DNA of 64,000 nucleotides from Parvibaculaceae bacterium (GTDB lineage: Bacteria; Pseudomonadota; Alphaproteobacteria; Parvibaculales; Parvibaculaceae), in assembly GCA_028283765.1 (NCBI GenBank), contig JAPWJY010000003.1:186001-250000 (forward strand), read 5' to 3'. The notes under the pieces are model-generated. The model did not search any database, had not been told where the DNA came from, and saw only the letters and a list, made by a program, of their open reading frames with translations. Every line of letters starts with the position of its first letter. Position 1 is the stretch's first letter. Position numbers and translations under genes: made by a program. Positions 6,020 through 12,981 of the stretch are shown here, piece after piece.

Positions 6020-6889
6020 CTACGCCGTCAGCTCGTCGAAATCAAGACCGAGATCGAGGCAGGGGGCGGAGTGGGTGATCCAGCCGCAGGAAATGAGATC
6101 GACGCCCGACGCGGCGATGGCGGCGGCGGTTGCCGCCGTCACATTGCCGGAAGCCTCCGTGGTGGCGCGGCCAGCGACCAGCTTCACAGCTTCGGTCAAT
6201 GTTTCCGGCGACATGTTGTCGAGCAGCACGGCTTCGACACCGACGCCCAGGCATTCCTCAAGCTGTTCGAGATTGTCGACCTCGACCTCGATCTTGACCA
6301 TATGGCCGGTCTGCTTGCGCGCGCGCGCGACGGCGGCGGTGATGCCGCCGGACATGGCGATGTGATTGTCCTTGATGAGGACGCCGTCATCGAGGCCGAA
6401 ACGGTGGTTGATGCCGCCGCCCGCGCGCACGGCATATTTTTCGAGCGCGCGCAGGTTGGGCGTGGTCTTGCGGGTGCAGCAGATGCGGGCCTGCGTGCCC
6501 TCGACCGCGCGCACGATTTCGCGGGTCGAGGTAGCGATGCCGGAGAGGTGACCCATGAAATTGAGGGCGACGCGCTCGGCGGTCAGGATCGAACGCGCGC
6601 TGCCCTCGATGGCAGCCACCGTATCGCCGGGCTCCACGTCCCAGCCGTCGTTTTTTGCGACCGCGATCTTGAGGCCGGGATCGATCAGGCGGAAGGCGAT
6701 GCGGGCGCAGTCGAGTCCCGCGATCCGGCCGGATTTCCGGGCACGGATCATCACCCGCGCGCGGGCGGAGGAAGGCACCGTGGCGCTGGTGGTGATGTCG
6801 CCCGCAAGCCCCAGATCCTCCTCCAGCGCGGCGCGCACGGCGGGCTCCACGATCAGCAGCGGCAGGGATTCAAGATCGACGATACTCAT
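6020..6889 (-). CDS. nadC: Nicotinate-nucleotide pyrophosphorylase (quinolinate phosphoribosyltransferase)
   Basis: Converts quinolinate and PRPP to nicotinate mononucleotide, the third step of de novo NAD synthesis from aspartate. The 289-residue length is normal. Family segments are [16 protein letters not shown] near the N-terminus, [18 protein letters not shown], the phosphate-binding [17 protein letters not shown], and [20 protein letters not shown] in the active site. The start overlaps the nadB stop by 4 bases, so nadC is translationally coupled as the last gene of nadA-nadB-nadC. Control is expected from the NadQ sites upstream of nadA. Confidence 0.97.
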
Positions 6890-8487
6890 GCGCTATGTCC
6901 CTGGGCGGCGGGTTCGATATGGGCGCTCTCGCGCGCGATGTTCTCGGCATCCGCCAATGTCATGAAGGTGCGATGCCGCCAGTTTTCCCTGGCCTCGGGC
7001 ATGTCGCGGCGGAAGTGGCCGCCCCGGCTTTCGGTGCGCGCCAGCGCCGCCGCGGTGATCAGCCTGGCGGTGCAGGCCATGTTGAGGAAAAGGCTCTGCG
7101 GCCCCGCCGCCCGCTCCAGCCGGGCGATCTCGCCCAGCGCATGGACAAGGCCCGCCTGTGTCCGTTCGACCCCGACACAACGGCTCATCAGCGTGCGCAG
7201 GTCCATGACGATGGGCGAGGTGACGGGAAGCCCCACGCCCAGCGACGGGGGCTCGGTCCGGTTGCCGGATTCGCCCGCGGGCAGCGTGCCGGAAATATCC
7301 TGTGCGATGCGCGCGCCATAAACCACGGCTTCGAGAAGCGAGTTGCTGGCGAGCCTGTTCGCACCATGAGCGCCGGTGGAAGAAACCTCGCCGCAGGCCC
7401 ACAGGCCCTCGATGCTGGTGCGCCCCCGCGCATCGACGCCGATGCCGCCCATATGATAGTGGGCGGCGGGCGCGACGGGGATGGGCGCGCTGACCGGATC
7501 AATGCCCATCGACTGGCAATGTTCGTAGACGGTGGGGAAGCGCTCCGGGAAGGCCGCGCCCACGGCGGCGCGCGTATCGAGGAAGGCGCTGCGGCCCGCC
7601 TCTATTTCGCGGAAGATGGCACGGGCCACCACGTCGCGCGGCGCAAGTTCCGCCAGCGGATGAATGGCGGGCATGAAGCGGCGGCCGGTTGCATCGATGA
7701 GGATCGAGCCTTCTCCTCGCAGCGCCTCGGTGACGAGGGGAGCCGGGTCACGCGACCCGGCGATGGCGGTCGGGTGGAACTGCACGAATTCGGGATCGGC
7801 GATCACCGCGCCCGCGCGCGCGGCCATGGCGAGACCTTCGCCGCGCGCTTCCAGCGGGTTGGTGGTGACGGCGAAAAGCTGGCCGACACCGCCGCTCGCC
7901 AGCACTACGGCGCGGGCCCTGACCAGCAGCGGCAGGGCGGCGGCGGAGGCATGCACGGGGCGCACGAAGACGCCCGCAGCGCGGCCGTTTTCCATCGCCA
8001 GCTCATAGGCCGAGAAGCCCTCGATGATGCGGATGGAGGGCGTGGCGCGCACGGCGGCGATCAGGGCCTGCATGATGGCGTGGCCCGCCCGGTCGCCCTT
8101 CACCCGCACGATGCGGCGATGGCTGTGGGCGGCTTCCTGGCCGACGGAGAGCTTGCCTTCCAGATCGCGGTCGAAAGGCACGCCGAGGCGCAGCAGATCA
8201 GCAATCCGCTCCGGCGCTTCCATCGCCATGGAAAGGGCCACGGTTTCATCGACGATGCCTGCGCCCGCCGCGACAGTGTCGGCGGCATGGGATTGCGGCG
8301 TGTCGCCCGCCTCCACGGCGGCGGCGACGCCGCCTTGCGCCCAGGCGCTGGAGGCGCCATCGCCGATGGGCGCGCCCGCGAGCACGGTGACGGGGCGGGG
8401 CGAAAGCTTGAGGGCGGTGAAGAGGCCCGCCAGACCCGCGCCGACGATCAGAACGTCGCCGGCATCGATGATATTGTCATAAGGCAT
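6886..8487 (-). CDS. nadB: L-aspartate oxidase
   Basis: An FAD enzyme oxidising L-aspartate to iminoaspartate, which NadA condenses with dihydroxyacetone phosphate. It has 533 residues, an N-terminal dinucleotide-binding motif ([14 protein letters not shown]), [20 protein letters not shown] for substrate and FAD binding, HPTAIAG, the family [15 protein letters not shown], and a C-terminal helical domain. GGGAGG lies 6 bases before the ATG. It overlaps nadC by 4 bases and starts 63 bases after the nadA stop, so the three genes form one operon in pathway order. Confidence 0.97.
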
Positions 8488-8550: not shown

Positions 8551-9636
8551 TCAGTTCTTCAGATTGATCATCCGCTCGACGGCCTGCCGCGCCCGGCCCG
8601 CGATGGCGGGATCGACATATACTTCCTCGCGCATGTAGACGAGCGACTCGAGAATGTTCCTGAGCGAGATGCGCTTCATGTGCGGGCACAGGTTGCAGGG
8701 GCGCACGAATTCCACGTCCGGGTTTTCCACGGCCACATTGTCGCTCATGGAGCATTCGGTGACCATGACGACGCGGCGCGGCTTTTTCGTCTTCACCCAG
8801 TCGATCATGGCGGCGGTGGAGCCGGAGAAGTCGGCGACGTCCACCACGGCGGGGGGGCATTCCGGATGGGCGATGATGACGATGCCCGGATCGTCCTTGC
8901 GATACTGCATCAGCTCTTCGGGGGTGAAGCGCTCATGCACCTCGCAATGGCCCTTCCATGTGATGATCTTCACATCGGTCTGGCGGGCGATGTTCTGCGC
9001 CAGATATTCGTCCGGCAGGCACATGACGCGATCGACGCCGAAGCTCTCGACCACTTTCACGGCATTGGAGGAGGTGCAGCAGATGTCGCTCTCCGCCTTC
9101 ACGGCGGCCGAGGTGTTCACATAGGTGACGACCGGCACGCCGGGATATTGCTGGCGCAGCAGGCGGATGTCGGCGGCCGTGATCGAGTCGGCGAGCGAAC
9201 AGCCCGCGCGGCTGTCGGGGATCAGGATGGTCTTTTCCGGGTTCAGCAGCTTCGACGTTTCCGCCATGAAGTGTACGCCGCACTGGACGATCACGTCGGC
9301 GTCCACCCGGGCCGCTTCCTTGGCGAGCTGGAGCGAGTCGCCCACAATGTCGCCGACGCAGTGGAAAATTTCCGGGGTCTGATAATTGTGCGCAAGGATG
9401 ACCGCGTTGCGCTCTTTCTTGAGACGGTTGATCGCGTGAATATAGGGCGCGAAGAACGGCCACTCGATGGAGGGGATGACATGCTTCACCTTTTCGTAAA
9501 GCGGAGCCATCTCCCGGGCGAGGCCGGGCGTATATTCAAGCTCGGGCATATCGAGCGGCTTGTAGGCGCGGGTGCCTGCGTTCACAGGGCTGGTGGTGCG
9601 CGCCTCATCCGTCCGGATTTCGCTGCCATAAGCCAT
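8551..9636 (-). CDS. nadA: Quinolinate synthase
   Basis: A [4Fe-4S] enzyme that condenses iminoaspartate with dihydroxyacetone phosphate to quinolinate. The protein has 361 residues. Cys119 (QCGVHFM), Cys206 (RVMCLPD) and Cys317 (NLCPHMK) fit the three expected cluster ligands. VILAHNYQ and [14 protein letters not shown] are typical of the family. An AGGAGGA lies 6 bases before the ATG. This is the first gene of nadABC. Its upstream region carries two NadQ-like palindromes and a sigma70-like promoter, so the operon should be repressed when NAD is sufficient. Confidence 0.97.
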
Positions 9637-9646
9637 TGCGTCCTCC

Positions 9647-9667
9647 TAATGCTCTATTTGAGCATAT
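9647..9667 (-). promoter_or_regulatory. NadQ-like operator, proximal to nadA
   Basis: A near-perfect palindrome, TAATGCTC-N5-GAGCATAT on the plus strand. It directly abuts the nadA ribosome-binding site (AGGAGG on the minus strand, 9642-9647) and lies downstream of the predicted transcription start. It has the same 21-base size and half-sites as the distal copy at 9713-9733. A bound repressor here could block an elongating polymerase or bridge to the distal site. Confidence 0.75.
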
Positions 9668-9677
9668 CTTGTGTATC

Positions 9678-9698
9678 AAAAAAGCCGGTCTCGACCGG
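9678..9698 (-). terminator. Terminator-like hairpin in the nadA leader
   Basis: On the minus strand a CCGGT-CGAG-ACCGG hairpin (9685-9698) is followed after one base by six T residues (9678-9683). The stem is only 5-6 bp. It could end read-through from nadQ or act as a leader attenuator, since the predicted start at about 9708 lies upstream of it. Confidence 0.4.
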
Positions 9699-9712
9699 TC
9701 TGTGATTGGCCG

Positions 9713-9733
9713 TAATGCTAGGCTTGAGCATTA
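9713..9733 (-). promoter_or_regulatory. NadQ-like operator, overlapping the nadA promoter
   Basis: A 21-base palindrome, TAATGCT-N7-AGCATTA. It covers the candidate -10 box (9715-9720) and most of the spacer of the nadA promoter, so binding would block polymerase. Its centre is 66 bases, about six helical turns, from the centre of the proximal copy. That spacing would suit cooperative binding or looping. Confidence 0.78.
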
Positions 9734-9743: not shown

Positions 9744-9797
9744 TTCCCATCCCGTGGAAATATATTAAGTGTCTGAAAAGACGCCTTGAATCACCAG

Positions 9798-9822
9798 AAA
9801 AGCCTGTGTTTCAAAGGCTTTT
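9798..9822. terminator. Hairpin terminator at the end of nadQ
   Basis: AAAAGCC (9798-9804) and GGCTTTT (9816-9822) enclose an 11-base loop. The structure overlaps the last base of the nadQ stop codon and ends in T residues on both strands. It separates the nadQ transcript from nadABC and supports a separate promoter for nadA. Confidence 0.6.
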
Positions 9823-10871
9823 TACGAGTTTGCGCGGCTGCGTGAGGGCGCGAGCTTGAGGCCCGGCGCGGGGCGTTCCGCCAGCACTTCGCGGCGAAAA
9901 CGGAACTGTTCGGCGGGGCGGCCGCCGGTCTGGGTGGTCACGCGTCCGGTGCGCTCGACGAGCCCGCCCTTTTCCACCAGACGGCGGAAATTCTGCTTGT
10001 GGACATGCAGGCCCAGCAGGGCTTCGACCGTTTTCTGCAATTCATAGAGGGTAAACACCGGCGGCATCATCTCGAAGGCGACCGGGCGGTATTTGATCTT
10101 GGAGCGCAGCCGGCTCATGGCGGTGGCGAGGATGCGCCGGTGGTCATATTGCATGGGCCGCCCCAGCAGCGGCGGCCGGGCTGCGCCACGCCGGGCAAGG
10201 GCGTTGGGGCGGCCGTCGCGGGCCGCCTCGCGCAGCAGGCCCGCTTCGTAGAGAAGCTCATAGCGCTCCAGCACCTTTTCCTCGTCCCATTGCACGCCAT
10301 CGGTGCCGAAGCAGAGCCGCACCCGGTCGAGGCGCCGCCCGCGCACCAGCTCTTCCGCGTTGGTGCTGGTCTTGTCGTTCGCCCATTCCCGCAGCAGCGG
10401 CACGATGAGCTGGTCGATGATGGCGGGCTTGCCGTCTCGCCAGTCGTCCCATGGGAAATGATCGTACCAGTCGCGCCAGACGGCGCCCGCAGGCGCGCTG
10501 TCGGCGGTGCGGGTCAGCGCCAGATAGCCGACGGAAACGACGTGTTCACCCGCCTGTTCCTTCAGTTCGGTGGCATGGCGGCCCCGGTCGCCGAAGGTAT
10601 AGAGCTGCTCGACATAGCCGAGCGTCAGCTTCGTCTGCTCCTGCACCCAGGAGCGCAGGCCGATTTCCAGCGTGCGGTGATGGAAGGGATCGAAGGGGCC
10701 GAAGGGAAGCGCGTCCCAGCGGCTGCTGGCGTCGTCGCCGTCCTGCGGCACCACAAGGATCTTGGGCTGGCCGTCGGCGACCGTGACGATGGCCGCATTG
10801 AGGCCGATGACGACGGCCACATCGGCAATGTCGGGGTCTTTTCTGGGGGCGGCGGGCGGTGCTTCTGTCAT
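9822..10871 (-). CDS. nadQ: NadQ-type transcriptional regulator of NAD synthesis (Nudix-like sensor plus winged helix)
   Basis: A 349-residue protein of the COG4111 type, known in alphaproteobacteria as the NAD biosynthesis regulator NadQ. Residues about 15-150 resemble a Nudix fold (VAVVIGLNAAIV, then PQDGDDASSRWDALPFGPF), but the Nudix box is degenerate (LEIGLRSWVQEQT lacks the REUxEExG pattern), which fits a ligand sensor rather than a hydrolase. The C-terminal 100 residues look like a winged helix (FTLYELQKTVEALLGLHVH, NFRRLVEKGGLVERTGR). It sits directly upstream of nadABC. Two matching palindromes lie between them. Its start overlaps the stop of the upstream phosphatase (ATGA). Assignment is from family memory plus context. 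Confidence 0.82.
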   Translation of the reverse strand: MTEAPPAAPRKDPDIADVAVVIGLNAAIVTVADGQPKILVVPQDGDDASSRWDALPFGPFDPFHHRTLEIGLRSWVQEQTKLTLGYVEQLYTFGDRGRHATELKEQAGEHVVSVGYLALTRTADSAPAGAVWRDWYDHFPWDDWRDGKPAIIDQLIVPLLREWANDKTSTNAEELVRGRRLDRVRLCFGTDGVQWDEEKVLERYELLYEAGLLREAARDGRPNALARRGAARPPLLGRPMQYDHRRILATAMSRLRSKIKYRPVAFEMMPPVFTLYELQKTVEALLGLHVHKQNFRRLVEKGGLVERTGRVTTQTGGRPAEQFRFRREVLAERPAPGLKLAPSRSRANS

Positions 10872-11383
10872 GGGGCCAGGGTCACCGGCAAGGCGTAGAG
10901 GTTACCTTCCCAGGCGGCGCTCGCGGGCCCGATGGCGGCGATGGCCTCGATCATGCGCCCGTCGCGGCCCAGCAGCGCGTCGCCCAGCGCCACGATCCGG
11001 GGATTGGGGTTGGCGTGGGGCCCGCGCTGGCGCAGGAGCCGGGCGAAGGCCATCTCGGTGCCGGGTTCATTGAGCGCGCAGAGCGCCACATAGGCCGAGG
11101 AGGTGGAACGGCTGATCCCGGCCCAGCAATGGACCAGCATCGGGGCCGAGCGGTCCCAGCCCCGGACGAAGGAGATCAGTTCCTCGACATGCGCCTGTTC
11201 CGGGCAGACCAGATCGTCGGCGGGAGCGTGAATGTCGTTGATGCCGAGGCGCAGGTGCCGGTCGGGTGCGATGCCCTCCGGCGTCGGGATCATGGAATTG
11301 GCATCGAGCAGCGAAATGACGTGAGAGGGCTTGAGTGTTTCGACGGCTTTTTCCACCGCGCTGAGCGGACTCACATAGATCAT
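10868..11383 (-). CDS. Tyrosine/dual-specificity phosphatase-like protein
   Basis: A 171-residue cytoplasmic protein with the CX5R signature of protein tyrosine phosphatases: HCWAGISRST with Cys86 as nucleophile and Arg92 in the phosphate loop. An upstream aspartate in NDIHAP could be the general acid. Similar small proteins are common in alphaproteobacteria, with unknown targets. It overlaps nadQ by 4 bases, so the two are translated from one message. Whether it has a role in NAD metabolism is not known. It may act on a phospho-protein or a small phosphorylated metabolite. Confidence 0.8.
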   Translation of the reverse strand: MIYVSPLSAVEKAVETLKPSHVISLLDANSMIPTPEGIAPDRHLRLGINDIHAPADDLVCPEQAHVEELISFVRGWDRSAPMLVHCWAGISRSTSSAYVALCALNEPGTEMAFARLLRQRGPHANPNPRIVALGDALLGRDGRMIEAIAAIGPASAAWEGNLYALPVTLAP

Positions 11384-11431: not shown

Positions 11432-12064
11432 TCAGGGCGCGGTGGACACGCGGGGGCTCTCGCTTGTGAGCAGGCGGAACCGTTCCAGATATTGCTGCTG
11501 GGCGGCCGGCGTCGGCAGCGGTTCGATCCTGATCGGAGCCAGGCCCCGGGGGCGGCTGAAAATGGCGGCGGCCTCGGAATCCCCGAAACCCGCGATCTGG
11601 GTCGCCTCCAGAAAGGCCGAGGCGCGGTCGGCCCGCTTGATCAGGTCTTCGACCTGGGCGGGCAGGCGGTCGGGCAGGCCGAAGCGGCGGCGGATCTCAA
11701 GGGCGAGGCGCTCCTCGAAGCCCTTGTAGTCGATCCCGAGCGCCGCCTTGAACGGGCTGATCATGTCGCCGATCACATATTCCGGCGCGTCGTGGAGAAG
11801 GGCGGCGAGCCGCCAGCGTTTGGGCCAACCCGGCTTGAACCGCACACAGATGTCGTCGACCAGCACGCAATGCTCGGCCACGGTGTAGGCGTGCTCCCCG
11901 CTGGTCTGCCCGTTCCAGCGGGCCACACGGGCAAGGCCGTGGGCGATGTCCTCGATTTCGATGTCGAGCGGCGAGGGATCGAGCAGATCCAGCCGCCGCC
12001 CGCTCAGCATCCGCTGCCAGGCCCGGGGCTTTTCTTCCTTTGCCGGTCTCCGGGAGACGGCCAT
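11432..12064 (-). CDS. HD-domain phosphohydrolase (YfbR-like)
   Basis: A 210-residue HD-superfamily metal-dependent phosphohydrolase. It shows the set H...HD...D: GEHAYTVAEHCVLV for the first histidine, AALLHDAPEYVIGDM for the HD pair, and IKRADRASAFLEA for the late aspartate. RVARWNGQTSGEHAYTV is typical of the YfbR/COG1896 group, several members of which act on nucleoside monophosphates. The start at 12064 (MAVSRRPAKEEK) has GGAGG 6 bases upstream; the frame stays open further upstream but is out of character there. That ribosome-binding site lies in the 3' arm of a hairpin just after ilvE. Confidence 0.82.
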   Translation of the reverse strand: MAVSRRPAKEEKPRAWQRMLSGRRLDLLDPSPLDIEIEDIAHGLARVARWNGQTSGEHAYTVAEHCVLVDDICVRFKPGWPKRWRLAALLHDAPEYVIGDMISPFKAALGIDYKGFEERLALEIRRRFGLPDRLPAQVEDLIKRADRASAFLEATQIAGFGDSEAAAIFSRPRGLAPIRIEPLPTPAAQQQYLERFRLLTSESPRVSTAP

Positions 12065-12065
12065 C

Positions 12066-12090
12066 GGGCCTCCAGCGCAAAAGGAGGCCC
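12066..12090 (-). promoter_or_regulatory. Hairpin between ilvE and the HD hydrolase that sequesters the next ribosome-binding site
   Basis: GGGCCTCC (12066-12073) pairs with GGAGGCCC (12083-12090) across a 9-base loop. On the minus strand it starts immediately after the ilvE TAA, and its 3' arm contains the GGAGG of the HD gene. No U run follows in the minus direction, so a role in translational control or processing is more likely than termination. Confidence 0.5.
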
Positions 12091-12981
12091 TTATTGGGCG
12101 GCCGACACCTTGGGATGAACGGCGGCGGTGTAGTCGTCCATCAGCGTCTGGGTCAGGGCGCCCGGCTTGAAGCGGTATTCGCCGATCTCGGCCACCGGCG
12201 TCACTTCGGCCGCCGTGCCGGTGATGAAGCATTCGCTGAAACCGGCCATCTCTTCCGGCTTGATGTGGCGCTCGATCACTTCGATGCCGCGCTTCCGGGC
12301 AAGCTCGATCACGCTCTGGCGGGTGATGCCATCGAGGAAACAGTCCGGCAGCGGGGTGTGGATCACGCCATCCTTGATGAAGAAGACGTTCGCGCCCGTG
12401 GCTTCCGCGACATAGCCGCGATAGTCGAACATCAGCGCGTCCGCATAGCCCTTGCGCTCGGCCTCATGCTTGGAGAGCGTGCAGATCATATAGAGACCCG
12501 CCGCCTTGGCCTTGCAGGGGATGGTGTCAGGGGCCGGGCGGTGCCATTTCGAGATGTCGAGGCGGATGCCCTTCATGCGCTGCGCCGGGTCGAAATAGGA
12601 CGGCCAGTCCCAGCAGGCGACGGCGACATTGATCCGGTTGTTCTGGGCTGAAACGCCCATCATCTCGCTGCCCCGCCATGCCAGCGGCCGCAGATAGGCC
12701 TCTGTCAGGCCGTTCGCCTTGCAGACGGCGATGCAGGCCTCGTCGATCTGCTCCACGGTATAGGGGATGGTGAAGCCCAGCGCTTCGCCCGACGCGATCA
12801 GGCGCAGCGAATGTTCGCGCAGCTTGAAGACTTCGCCGCCATACATCCGCTCTCCCTCGAACACGCAGCTTGCGTAATGAAGACCGTGCGTCAGCACATG
12901 GATCTTCGCGTCCTTCCAGGGCACGAGCGCCCCGTTGAACCAGATGAAGCCATCACGTTGGTCGAAGGGAAGATCAGACAT
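12091..12981 (-). CDS. ilvE: Branched-chain amino acid aminotransferase (class IV)
   Basis: A PLP enzyme for the last step of Leu, Ile and Val synthesis, or the first step of their breakdown. With the start at 12981 (MSDLPFDQRDGFIWFNG) it has 296 residues, the normal size. HVLTHGLHYASCVFEGER, YLRPLAWRGSEMMGVS, the lysine-containing PCKAKAAGLYM and EATGANVFFIKDG are class IV features. A longer in-frame ATG 36 bases upstream adds an untypical basic stretch. The upstream region is shared with a divergent MarR regulator whose long palindrome may also affect this gene. Confidence 0.93.
   Translation of the reverse strand: MSDLPFDQRDGFIWFNGALVPWKDAKIHVLTHGLHYASCVFEGERMYGGEVFKLREHSLRLIASGEALGFTIPYTVEQIDEACIAVCKANGLTEAYLRPLAWRGSEMMGVSAQNNRINVAVACWDWPSYFDPAQRMKGIRLDISKWHRPAPDTIPCKAKAAGLYMICTLSKHEAERKGYADALMFDYRGYVAEATGANVFFIKDGVIHTPLPDCFLDGITRQSVIELARKRGIEVIERHIKPEEMAGFSECFITGTAAEVTPVAEIGEYRFKPGALTQTLMDDYTAAVHPKVSAAQ

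Follow-up and report, generated by a model that had tools for sequence, protein, structure and literature searches.

A hairpin and T-tract kept at a fixed distance from the proximal NadQ operator in alphaproteobacterial nadA leaders: a possible repressor-gated terminator

In Proteobacteria, the NadQ regulon (COG4111) has nadABC as its core, and its operators conform to the consensus ttATRCTCannntGAGYATaa (PMC5343134). Both the regulator and its operator motif are already published. In bacterial intrinsic termination, about 8 nt usually separate the hairpin from the RNA 3′ end (PMC12366685). A bacterial polymerase that meets a DNA-bound roadblock is described as being removed by Mfd or possibly by Rho (PMC10310618, PMC4132739). 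Termination by eukaryotic RNA polymerase I (Pol I) combines a hairpin, a T-rich tract, and a roadblock site, with the enzyme stalling in the T-rich tract, 15 bp before that site (PMC12366685).

The DNA analysed here, called the window throughout, is a stretch of 64,000 nucleotides from the 3.24-Mb genome of a Parvibaculaceae bacterium. On its minus strand, nadA (quinolinate synthase, 8551–9636, ATG at 9636–9634; TIGR00550, 326 bits, cut-off 262.9), nadB (L-aspartate oxidase, 6886–8487; NF005701, 730 bits, cut-off 528), and nadC (nicotinate-nucleotide diphosphorylase, 6020–6889; TIGR00078, 330 bits, cut-off 198) follow in succession, and nadQ (9822–10871), encoding a NadQ-family repressor of 349 aa, lies upstream on the same strand. 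The encoded protein matches the structures 7q91–7q94, deposited in the PDB as 'NADQ transcription factor', over residues 31–344 (phmmer, E 1.1e-81 to 7q91), and since this similarity includes the N-terminal domain, it is a full-length one. Its C-terminal winged helix is homologous to that of NrtR (Pfam PF21906 NrtR_WHD, 65.2 bits, cut-off 27, residues 265–325); membership of the NrtR repressor family was nevertheless rejected, because no Nudix domain was matched by Pfam in the protein and its score with the NrtR family model NF050029, 70.6 bits, is below the cut-off of 400. NadQ is reportedly ATP-responsive, with its DNA binding controlled by ATP, to go by the title of a 2022 article by Minazzato. 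Two further minus-strand genes precede nadQ, one dual-specificity-phosphatase-like (10868–11383) and one for a YfbR-like nucleotidase (11432–12232), and the three are perhaps one operon. A hairpin with A/T flanks, AAAAAGCCTTTGAAACACAGGCTTTTC (9797–9823, minus strand, −7.9 kcal/mol), overlaps the nadQ stop codon and is probably the nadQ terminator, in which case nadABC would need a promoter of its own.

The predicted nadA promoter consists of TTGACG (−35, 9743–9738), a 17-nt spacer, and TAGCAT (−10, 9720–9715) on the minus strand, the only sigma70-like match in the 451 bp scanned (shuffle average, 0.2); TTGAC stands at the same place in the nadA upstream regions of family relatives. Both of the 21-base palindromes that an earlier note on this DNA had described upstream of nadA are present on this strand, their centres 66 bp apart: the distal one (op1), TAATGCTAGGCTTGAGCATTA, that is, TAATGCTCAAGCCTAGCATTA, at 9713–9733, and the proximal one (op2), TAATGCTCTATTTGAGCATAT, that is, ATATGCTCAAATAGAGCATTA, at 9647–9667, with its core at 9649–9665. 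Both agree with the NadQ operator consensus at NAD biosynthesis genes, and the same pair precedes nadA in the family's loci. Also as described, op1 covers the −10 box, and op2 touches the nadA ribosome-binding site, sharing one base with AGGAGGA (9647–9641). Of the perfect core, ATRCTC-N5-GAGYAT, the 3.24-Mb genome has a single copy, at op2; 31 of 40 family genomes also have a perfect core, mostly one copy adjoining nadA. The op1 core departs from it by one mismatch, TAGCAT for GAGCAT, which creates the −10 hexamer, and among relatives, the downstream half of the distal operator most often reads TAGCAT. A second promoter at op2 was rejected, as ACCGGC, which is no −35 element, stands 17 nt upstream of its TATGCT. 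Given the match of the nadQ product to 7q91 and the fit to the consensus, the view that the adjoining nadQ encodes the regulator for such sites holds good; that op1 and op2 are NadQ operators linked to NadQ is close to certain, and they are a further member of the known NadQ regulon.

Scanning the whole 3.24-Mb genome for the motif revealed no further targets of the pncB type or at nadQ. There are nine other core sites with one mismatch, all of them covered by open frames of 408 nt or more, and a wider regulon was rejected on that ground. From the sequence, the NadQ regulon here looks like nadABC only, in one operon. The earlier note had expected such a scan to give pncB, nadQ, and other NAD genes and would have counted their absence against its reading; none was found, and this shows only that the regulon is confined to one operon.

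The link between operator and regulator extends across Alphaproteobacteria. In a class sample of 120 nadA upstream regions, taken from 117 NadA matches with at least 57% identity and from three of the 27 distant matches listed (about 40% identity), with an operator called at 11/12 or better, the operator occurs together with NadQ in the genome in 90 regions and without NadQ in none, while 28 have neither and two have NadQ alone, counts that are not independent because the genomes are related; the reversed pattern, used as a control, gave 0/120. At the loci L198 (genome G352) and L215 (G230), NadQ is encoded in the genome, and a recognisable operator is absent upstream of nadA.

Between the operators lies an element that the earlier note left out. 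Read along the nadA strand, op1 is followed by the hairpin CCGGT-CGAG-ACCGG (9698–9685, −5.8 kcal/mol), a single C, and six T (9683–9678), so that the stretch 9698–9678 has the sequence make-up of an intrinsic terminator, a GC-rich hairpin directly before a T-tract. In the leaders of relatives, a hairpin and T-run are likewise found just before op2, in unrelated sequence versions, with stems such as GCGGA/TCCGC, GACGGGC/GCCCGTC, CCAGC/GCTGG, and GGGGC/GCCCC. When the 75 nt upstream of op2 were scanned with no preset distance, 32 of the 37 two-operator rows gave a terminator-like match, which in 27 of the 32 ends 16–20 nt before the op2 core.

A larger leader sample was assembled from the 90 class regions with an operator, 89 of which, with operators no more than 330 nt from the nadA match, were retained and made up to 90 rows with the window, and from 67 of 69 unique nadA upstream regions, which come from 80 loci of named genomes and 37 loci of the family; L005 and L085 were omitted because they nearly duplicate the window. 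Removing redundancy at 75% identity across 62 nt left 109 non-redundant leaders out of these 157 rows: 66 two-operator leaders whose operators lie 50 bp or more apart, 14 with tandem operators, and 29 with a single operator. The sample is confined to Alphaproteobacteria; NadQ also occurs in Betaproteobacteria and other lineages. An initial test, which took the best hairpin anywhere in the leader, placed it at 14–21 nt in 36 of 66 leaders (188/1320 in shuffles), but such a ranking favours the op1 palindrome and longer extended hairpins, which score above the short stem, and so lowers the count. Position profiles, and tests in which positions were slid or sequences shuffled, took its place. In these profiles, perfect stems peak 18–20 nt before op2, at 25, 41, and 39 loci, compared with about 1.7 per position in shuffles. 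A strict stem ending 15–21 nt upstream of the op2 core is present in 52 of the 66 two-operator leaders (shuffle mean 8.3, max 16), in none of the 14 tandem-operator leaders, and in 7 of the 29 single-operator leaders (shuffle mean 2.4, max 7). If one G-T pair and longer loops are allowed, a stem at 16–20 nt is found in 63 of the 66 (shuffles: mean 17.7, max 24; position slid: 14 and 23), and if at least five T in eight are required with the stem at that distance, 52 of the 66 qualify (shuffle mean 2.7, max 6; slid, 2 and 1); the 16–20 nt window was picked after the sequences had been viewed, and all distances are covered by the 75-nt scan and the position profile. Counted from the op2 core, positions −17 to −13 have T fractions of 71, 89, 91, 77, and 91% among the 66 leaders. 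Closer to op2, these leaders also have a conserved CC at −8/−7 before the core (61% and 73% C), which neither the hairpin nor the operator explains.

The 52 leaders that combine stem and T-tract come from 17 labelled families and from named genomes without a family label. The 5-mer arms of one locus pair with each other in 39 of 66 cases; in 200 trials with arms exchanged among loci, the mean was 16.4 and the maximum 24, which shows covariation of the arms. In the class sample, the hairpin with T-tract was found in 23 of 31 two-operator (type-A) leaders, in 8 of 41 other leaders with NadQ, and in 1 of 28 leaders without NadQ. On these grounds, the hairpin is very probably a selected element of the leader. 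There are exceptions, with the stem absent from three of the 66 leaders (L225, L236, and L239) and the T-tract poor (at most 4 T in 8) in 19 of 63, for example, in Afipia and Bradyrhizobium. Since the hairpin in the window is weak at −5.8 kcal/mol and many T-tracts are poor, the element may pause the polymerase rather than terminate transcription. When the module was searched for class-wide, 38 of 387 genomes gave matches and the reversed control none. Among the matches outside nadA, L303, L309, L311, and L315 are read as chance, whereas L310 reflects the nadA operator as seen on the opposite strand and L297 a contig end. In a genome with NadQ, a T-run and a NadQ-like palindrome are found away from nadA (G085:C23:26705–26737), a possible further target.

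A conserved leader hairpin also invites an explanation at the RNA level, in which a riboswitch or an RNA thermometer makes up the leader, or a hairpin forms at the ribosome-binding site from the op2 palindrome, which in the window can fold as RNA. This is improbable on several counts: Rfam gave no match at gathering score in 12 relatives' loci and a single unrelated weak match in the window between 8000 and 11500; the predicted transcript up to the T-tract, about 30 nt, is too short for an aptamer; and the leader of the window is not unusually stable (z −1.35). A riboswitch was rejected because neither the scanned part of the window nor the 12 relatives' loci gave a match to an NAD riboswitch family in Rfam and there is no room for an aptamer. 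The op2 hairpin was rejected as well, since an A stands opposite a C at the variable position in 22 of the 109 op2 sites, a mismatch that disrupts pairing in RNA but is compatible with a DNA palindrome.

What sets the hairpin apart is its position. The stem lies on average 18.1 nt from the op2 core, with an s.d. of 1.1 that is itself bounded by the 16–21 search window, so that the unbiased statement of distance is the position profile. From the end of op1 to the stem, the distance ranges from 0 to 77 nt, and with the distance between the stem and op2 constant, the leader appears free in length only upstream of the hairpin. The two operators are spaced 53 to 131 bp apart among the 66 leaders. 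A DNA loop, closed by contact between NadQ dimers at op1 and op2 with the intervening 66 bp of the window looped out, would make ready sense of two matched sites at one promoter; however, the 66 spacings are not in phase with the helix (at 10.5 bp, R = 0.03 and p about 0.93; R = 0.09 at 10.2 and 0.05 at 10.8), which argues against it. Looping is thus very unlikely and was dropped as the main model. The hairpin might instead be an insulator that only stops read-through from upstream genes such as nadQ, which in the window does lie upstream on the same strand. That role, too, has little probability, because nadQ seems to own a 3′ hairpin (9797–9823), because the element sits downstream of the nadA promoter and would cut nadA transcripts as well, and because its distance is set by op2 and not by the upstream gene.

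The fixed distance can be accommodated by a two-layer control of nadABC by NadQ, in which op1 blocks initiation and a roadblock at op2 holds the polymerase on the leader terminator, a scheme to which we give an even chance. NadQ bound at op1 would cover the −10 box and prevent initiation. Those transcripts that do start would meet the short GC hairpin and T-tract at once, after a leader of about 30 nt as counted from the predicted start. With its core about 18 nt after the hairpin, op2 would lie downstream of that start, as predicted from TTGACG-17-TAGCAT, and NadQ on op2 would act as a roadblock that holds the active centre on the T-tract, where the hairpin could release the polymerase. Once NadQ is off the DNA, polymerase would escape the weak terminator and read into nadA. 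The distances suit this course of events: if polymerase is stopped 10–15 bp before the operator, 18 nt between stem and op2 core would place the active centre 3–8 nt past the hairpin, that is, in the T-tract, and from there NadQ at op2 could make a weak terminator efficient. That NadQ at op2 does convert the weak hairpin and T-tract into an efficient terminator by holding RNA polymerase there is a tentative proposal, and for the coupling of NadQ and termination in general the chance is even at best. A bacterial roadblock may stop polymerase a few nucleotides short of the release point, and LexA used as a roadblock gave no efficient hairpin termination at a distance that needed backtracking (quoted in PMC12366685). 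The earlier note had proposed a promoter block together with a roadblock or a loop; the block agrees with the position of op1 over the −10 box and the roadblock is possible and gains weight from the hairpin and T-tract at a fixed distance, whereas the loop is disfavoured by the spacings.

A simpler rival leaves the parts uncoupled: with or without NadQ, the hairpin and T-tract would reduce basal transcription of nadABC or make polymerase pause, and NadQ would simply repress at op1 and block elongation at op2. Such parts work alone in known systems, among them the roadblock repressors PurR, GalR, CcpA, and CodY (PMC10310618), and 43 of the 109 non-redundant leaders have tandem or single operators. 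This rival accounts for the parts and not for the fixed distance. It is at odds with a spacing between hairpin and op2 that is kept while that to op1 varies, and with the near absence of the hairpin where NadQ is lacking and in tandem-operator leaders, and we regard it as rather unlikely, if well above looping or insulation.

Termination gated by NadQ would in any case be one design among several, since the many NadQ genomes with tandem (14 leaders) or single operators (29 leaders) are mostly hairpin-free, and NadQ control does not need the hairpin. In a second layout, two NadQ operators stand 22–28 bp apart close behind a TTGAC box, without a leader hairpin (L194, L202, L203, L205, L206, L210, L217, L231, L234, L235, L240, L243, L250, and L251). 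Three NadQ-like operators are found in the leaders of L225, L236, L228, L239, and L233, and in L225 and L236, these are a tandem pair and a third operator behind a T-run; such leaders are possible intermediates between the two layouts. The NadQ of L252 is very close to the crystallised one (E 5e-105 over 202 residues), and the nadA operators of this locus are 34 bp apart with no hairpin and T-tract between them. With a close relative of the crystallised NadQ thus devoid of it, the leader hairpin may have been easy to overlook.

If the coupling is real, the terminator and operator, locked at one distance, would make up a variant form of roadblock repression, and a repressor responsive to a small molecule would set termination efficiency in a natural system. 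Control at the elongation stage would be added to bacterial NAD synthesis, as a second layer kept in at least 17 alphaproteobacterial families. The many natural variants of hairpin, T-tract, and spacing would allow direct tests of what a hairpin does behind a roadblocked polymerase, and the succession of hairpin, T-tract, 18 nt, and palindrome would provide a simple genome signature by which other regulons can be searched.

Compared with known systems, the locus shares with the published NadQ regulon (PMC5343134; structures 7q91–7q94) the homology of the regulator, the consensus, the nadABC target, and the clustering of genes. The portion of PMC5343134 consulted describes sites and targets and no leader terminator, whereas the window has a candidate for one; likewise, the literature excerpts on NadQ, leader attenuators, and roadblocks with terminators, a set to which the primary NadQ paper does not belong, yielded no terminator between NadQ operators. 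The NAD+-I riboswitch (nadA motif) and other leader attenuators also control nadA by its leader, and the leader of the window differs from that riboswitch in having no Rfam match and no room for an aptamer. The roadblock repressors PurR, CodY, CcpA, GalR, and LacI, the last as a model, have an operator in the transcribed region, as is predicted here; in the available parts of the sources (PMC10310618, PMC4132739), no leader hairpin is paired with the operator, in contrast to the hairpin and T-tract that stand at a fixed distance from op2. The Pol I terminator (Reb1/Nsi1/TTF1; PMC12366685) has the same order of RNA hairpin, T-rich tract, and site for a roadblock protein, with the hairpin 20 nt from the stalled 3′ end in that system and about 18 nt from the operator core in this one. 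It serves another enzyme, at the gene end and constitutively, whereas the nadA element lies in a leader and, in our proposal, is controlled by a repressor, and the likeness is an analogy of layout and not one of membership. If the proposal is true, the nadA leader would represent a naturally occurring bacterial equivalent of roadblock termination by Pol I, similar in both layout and logic.
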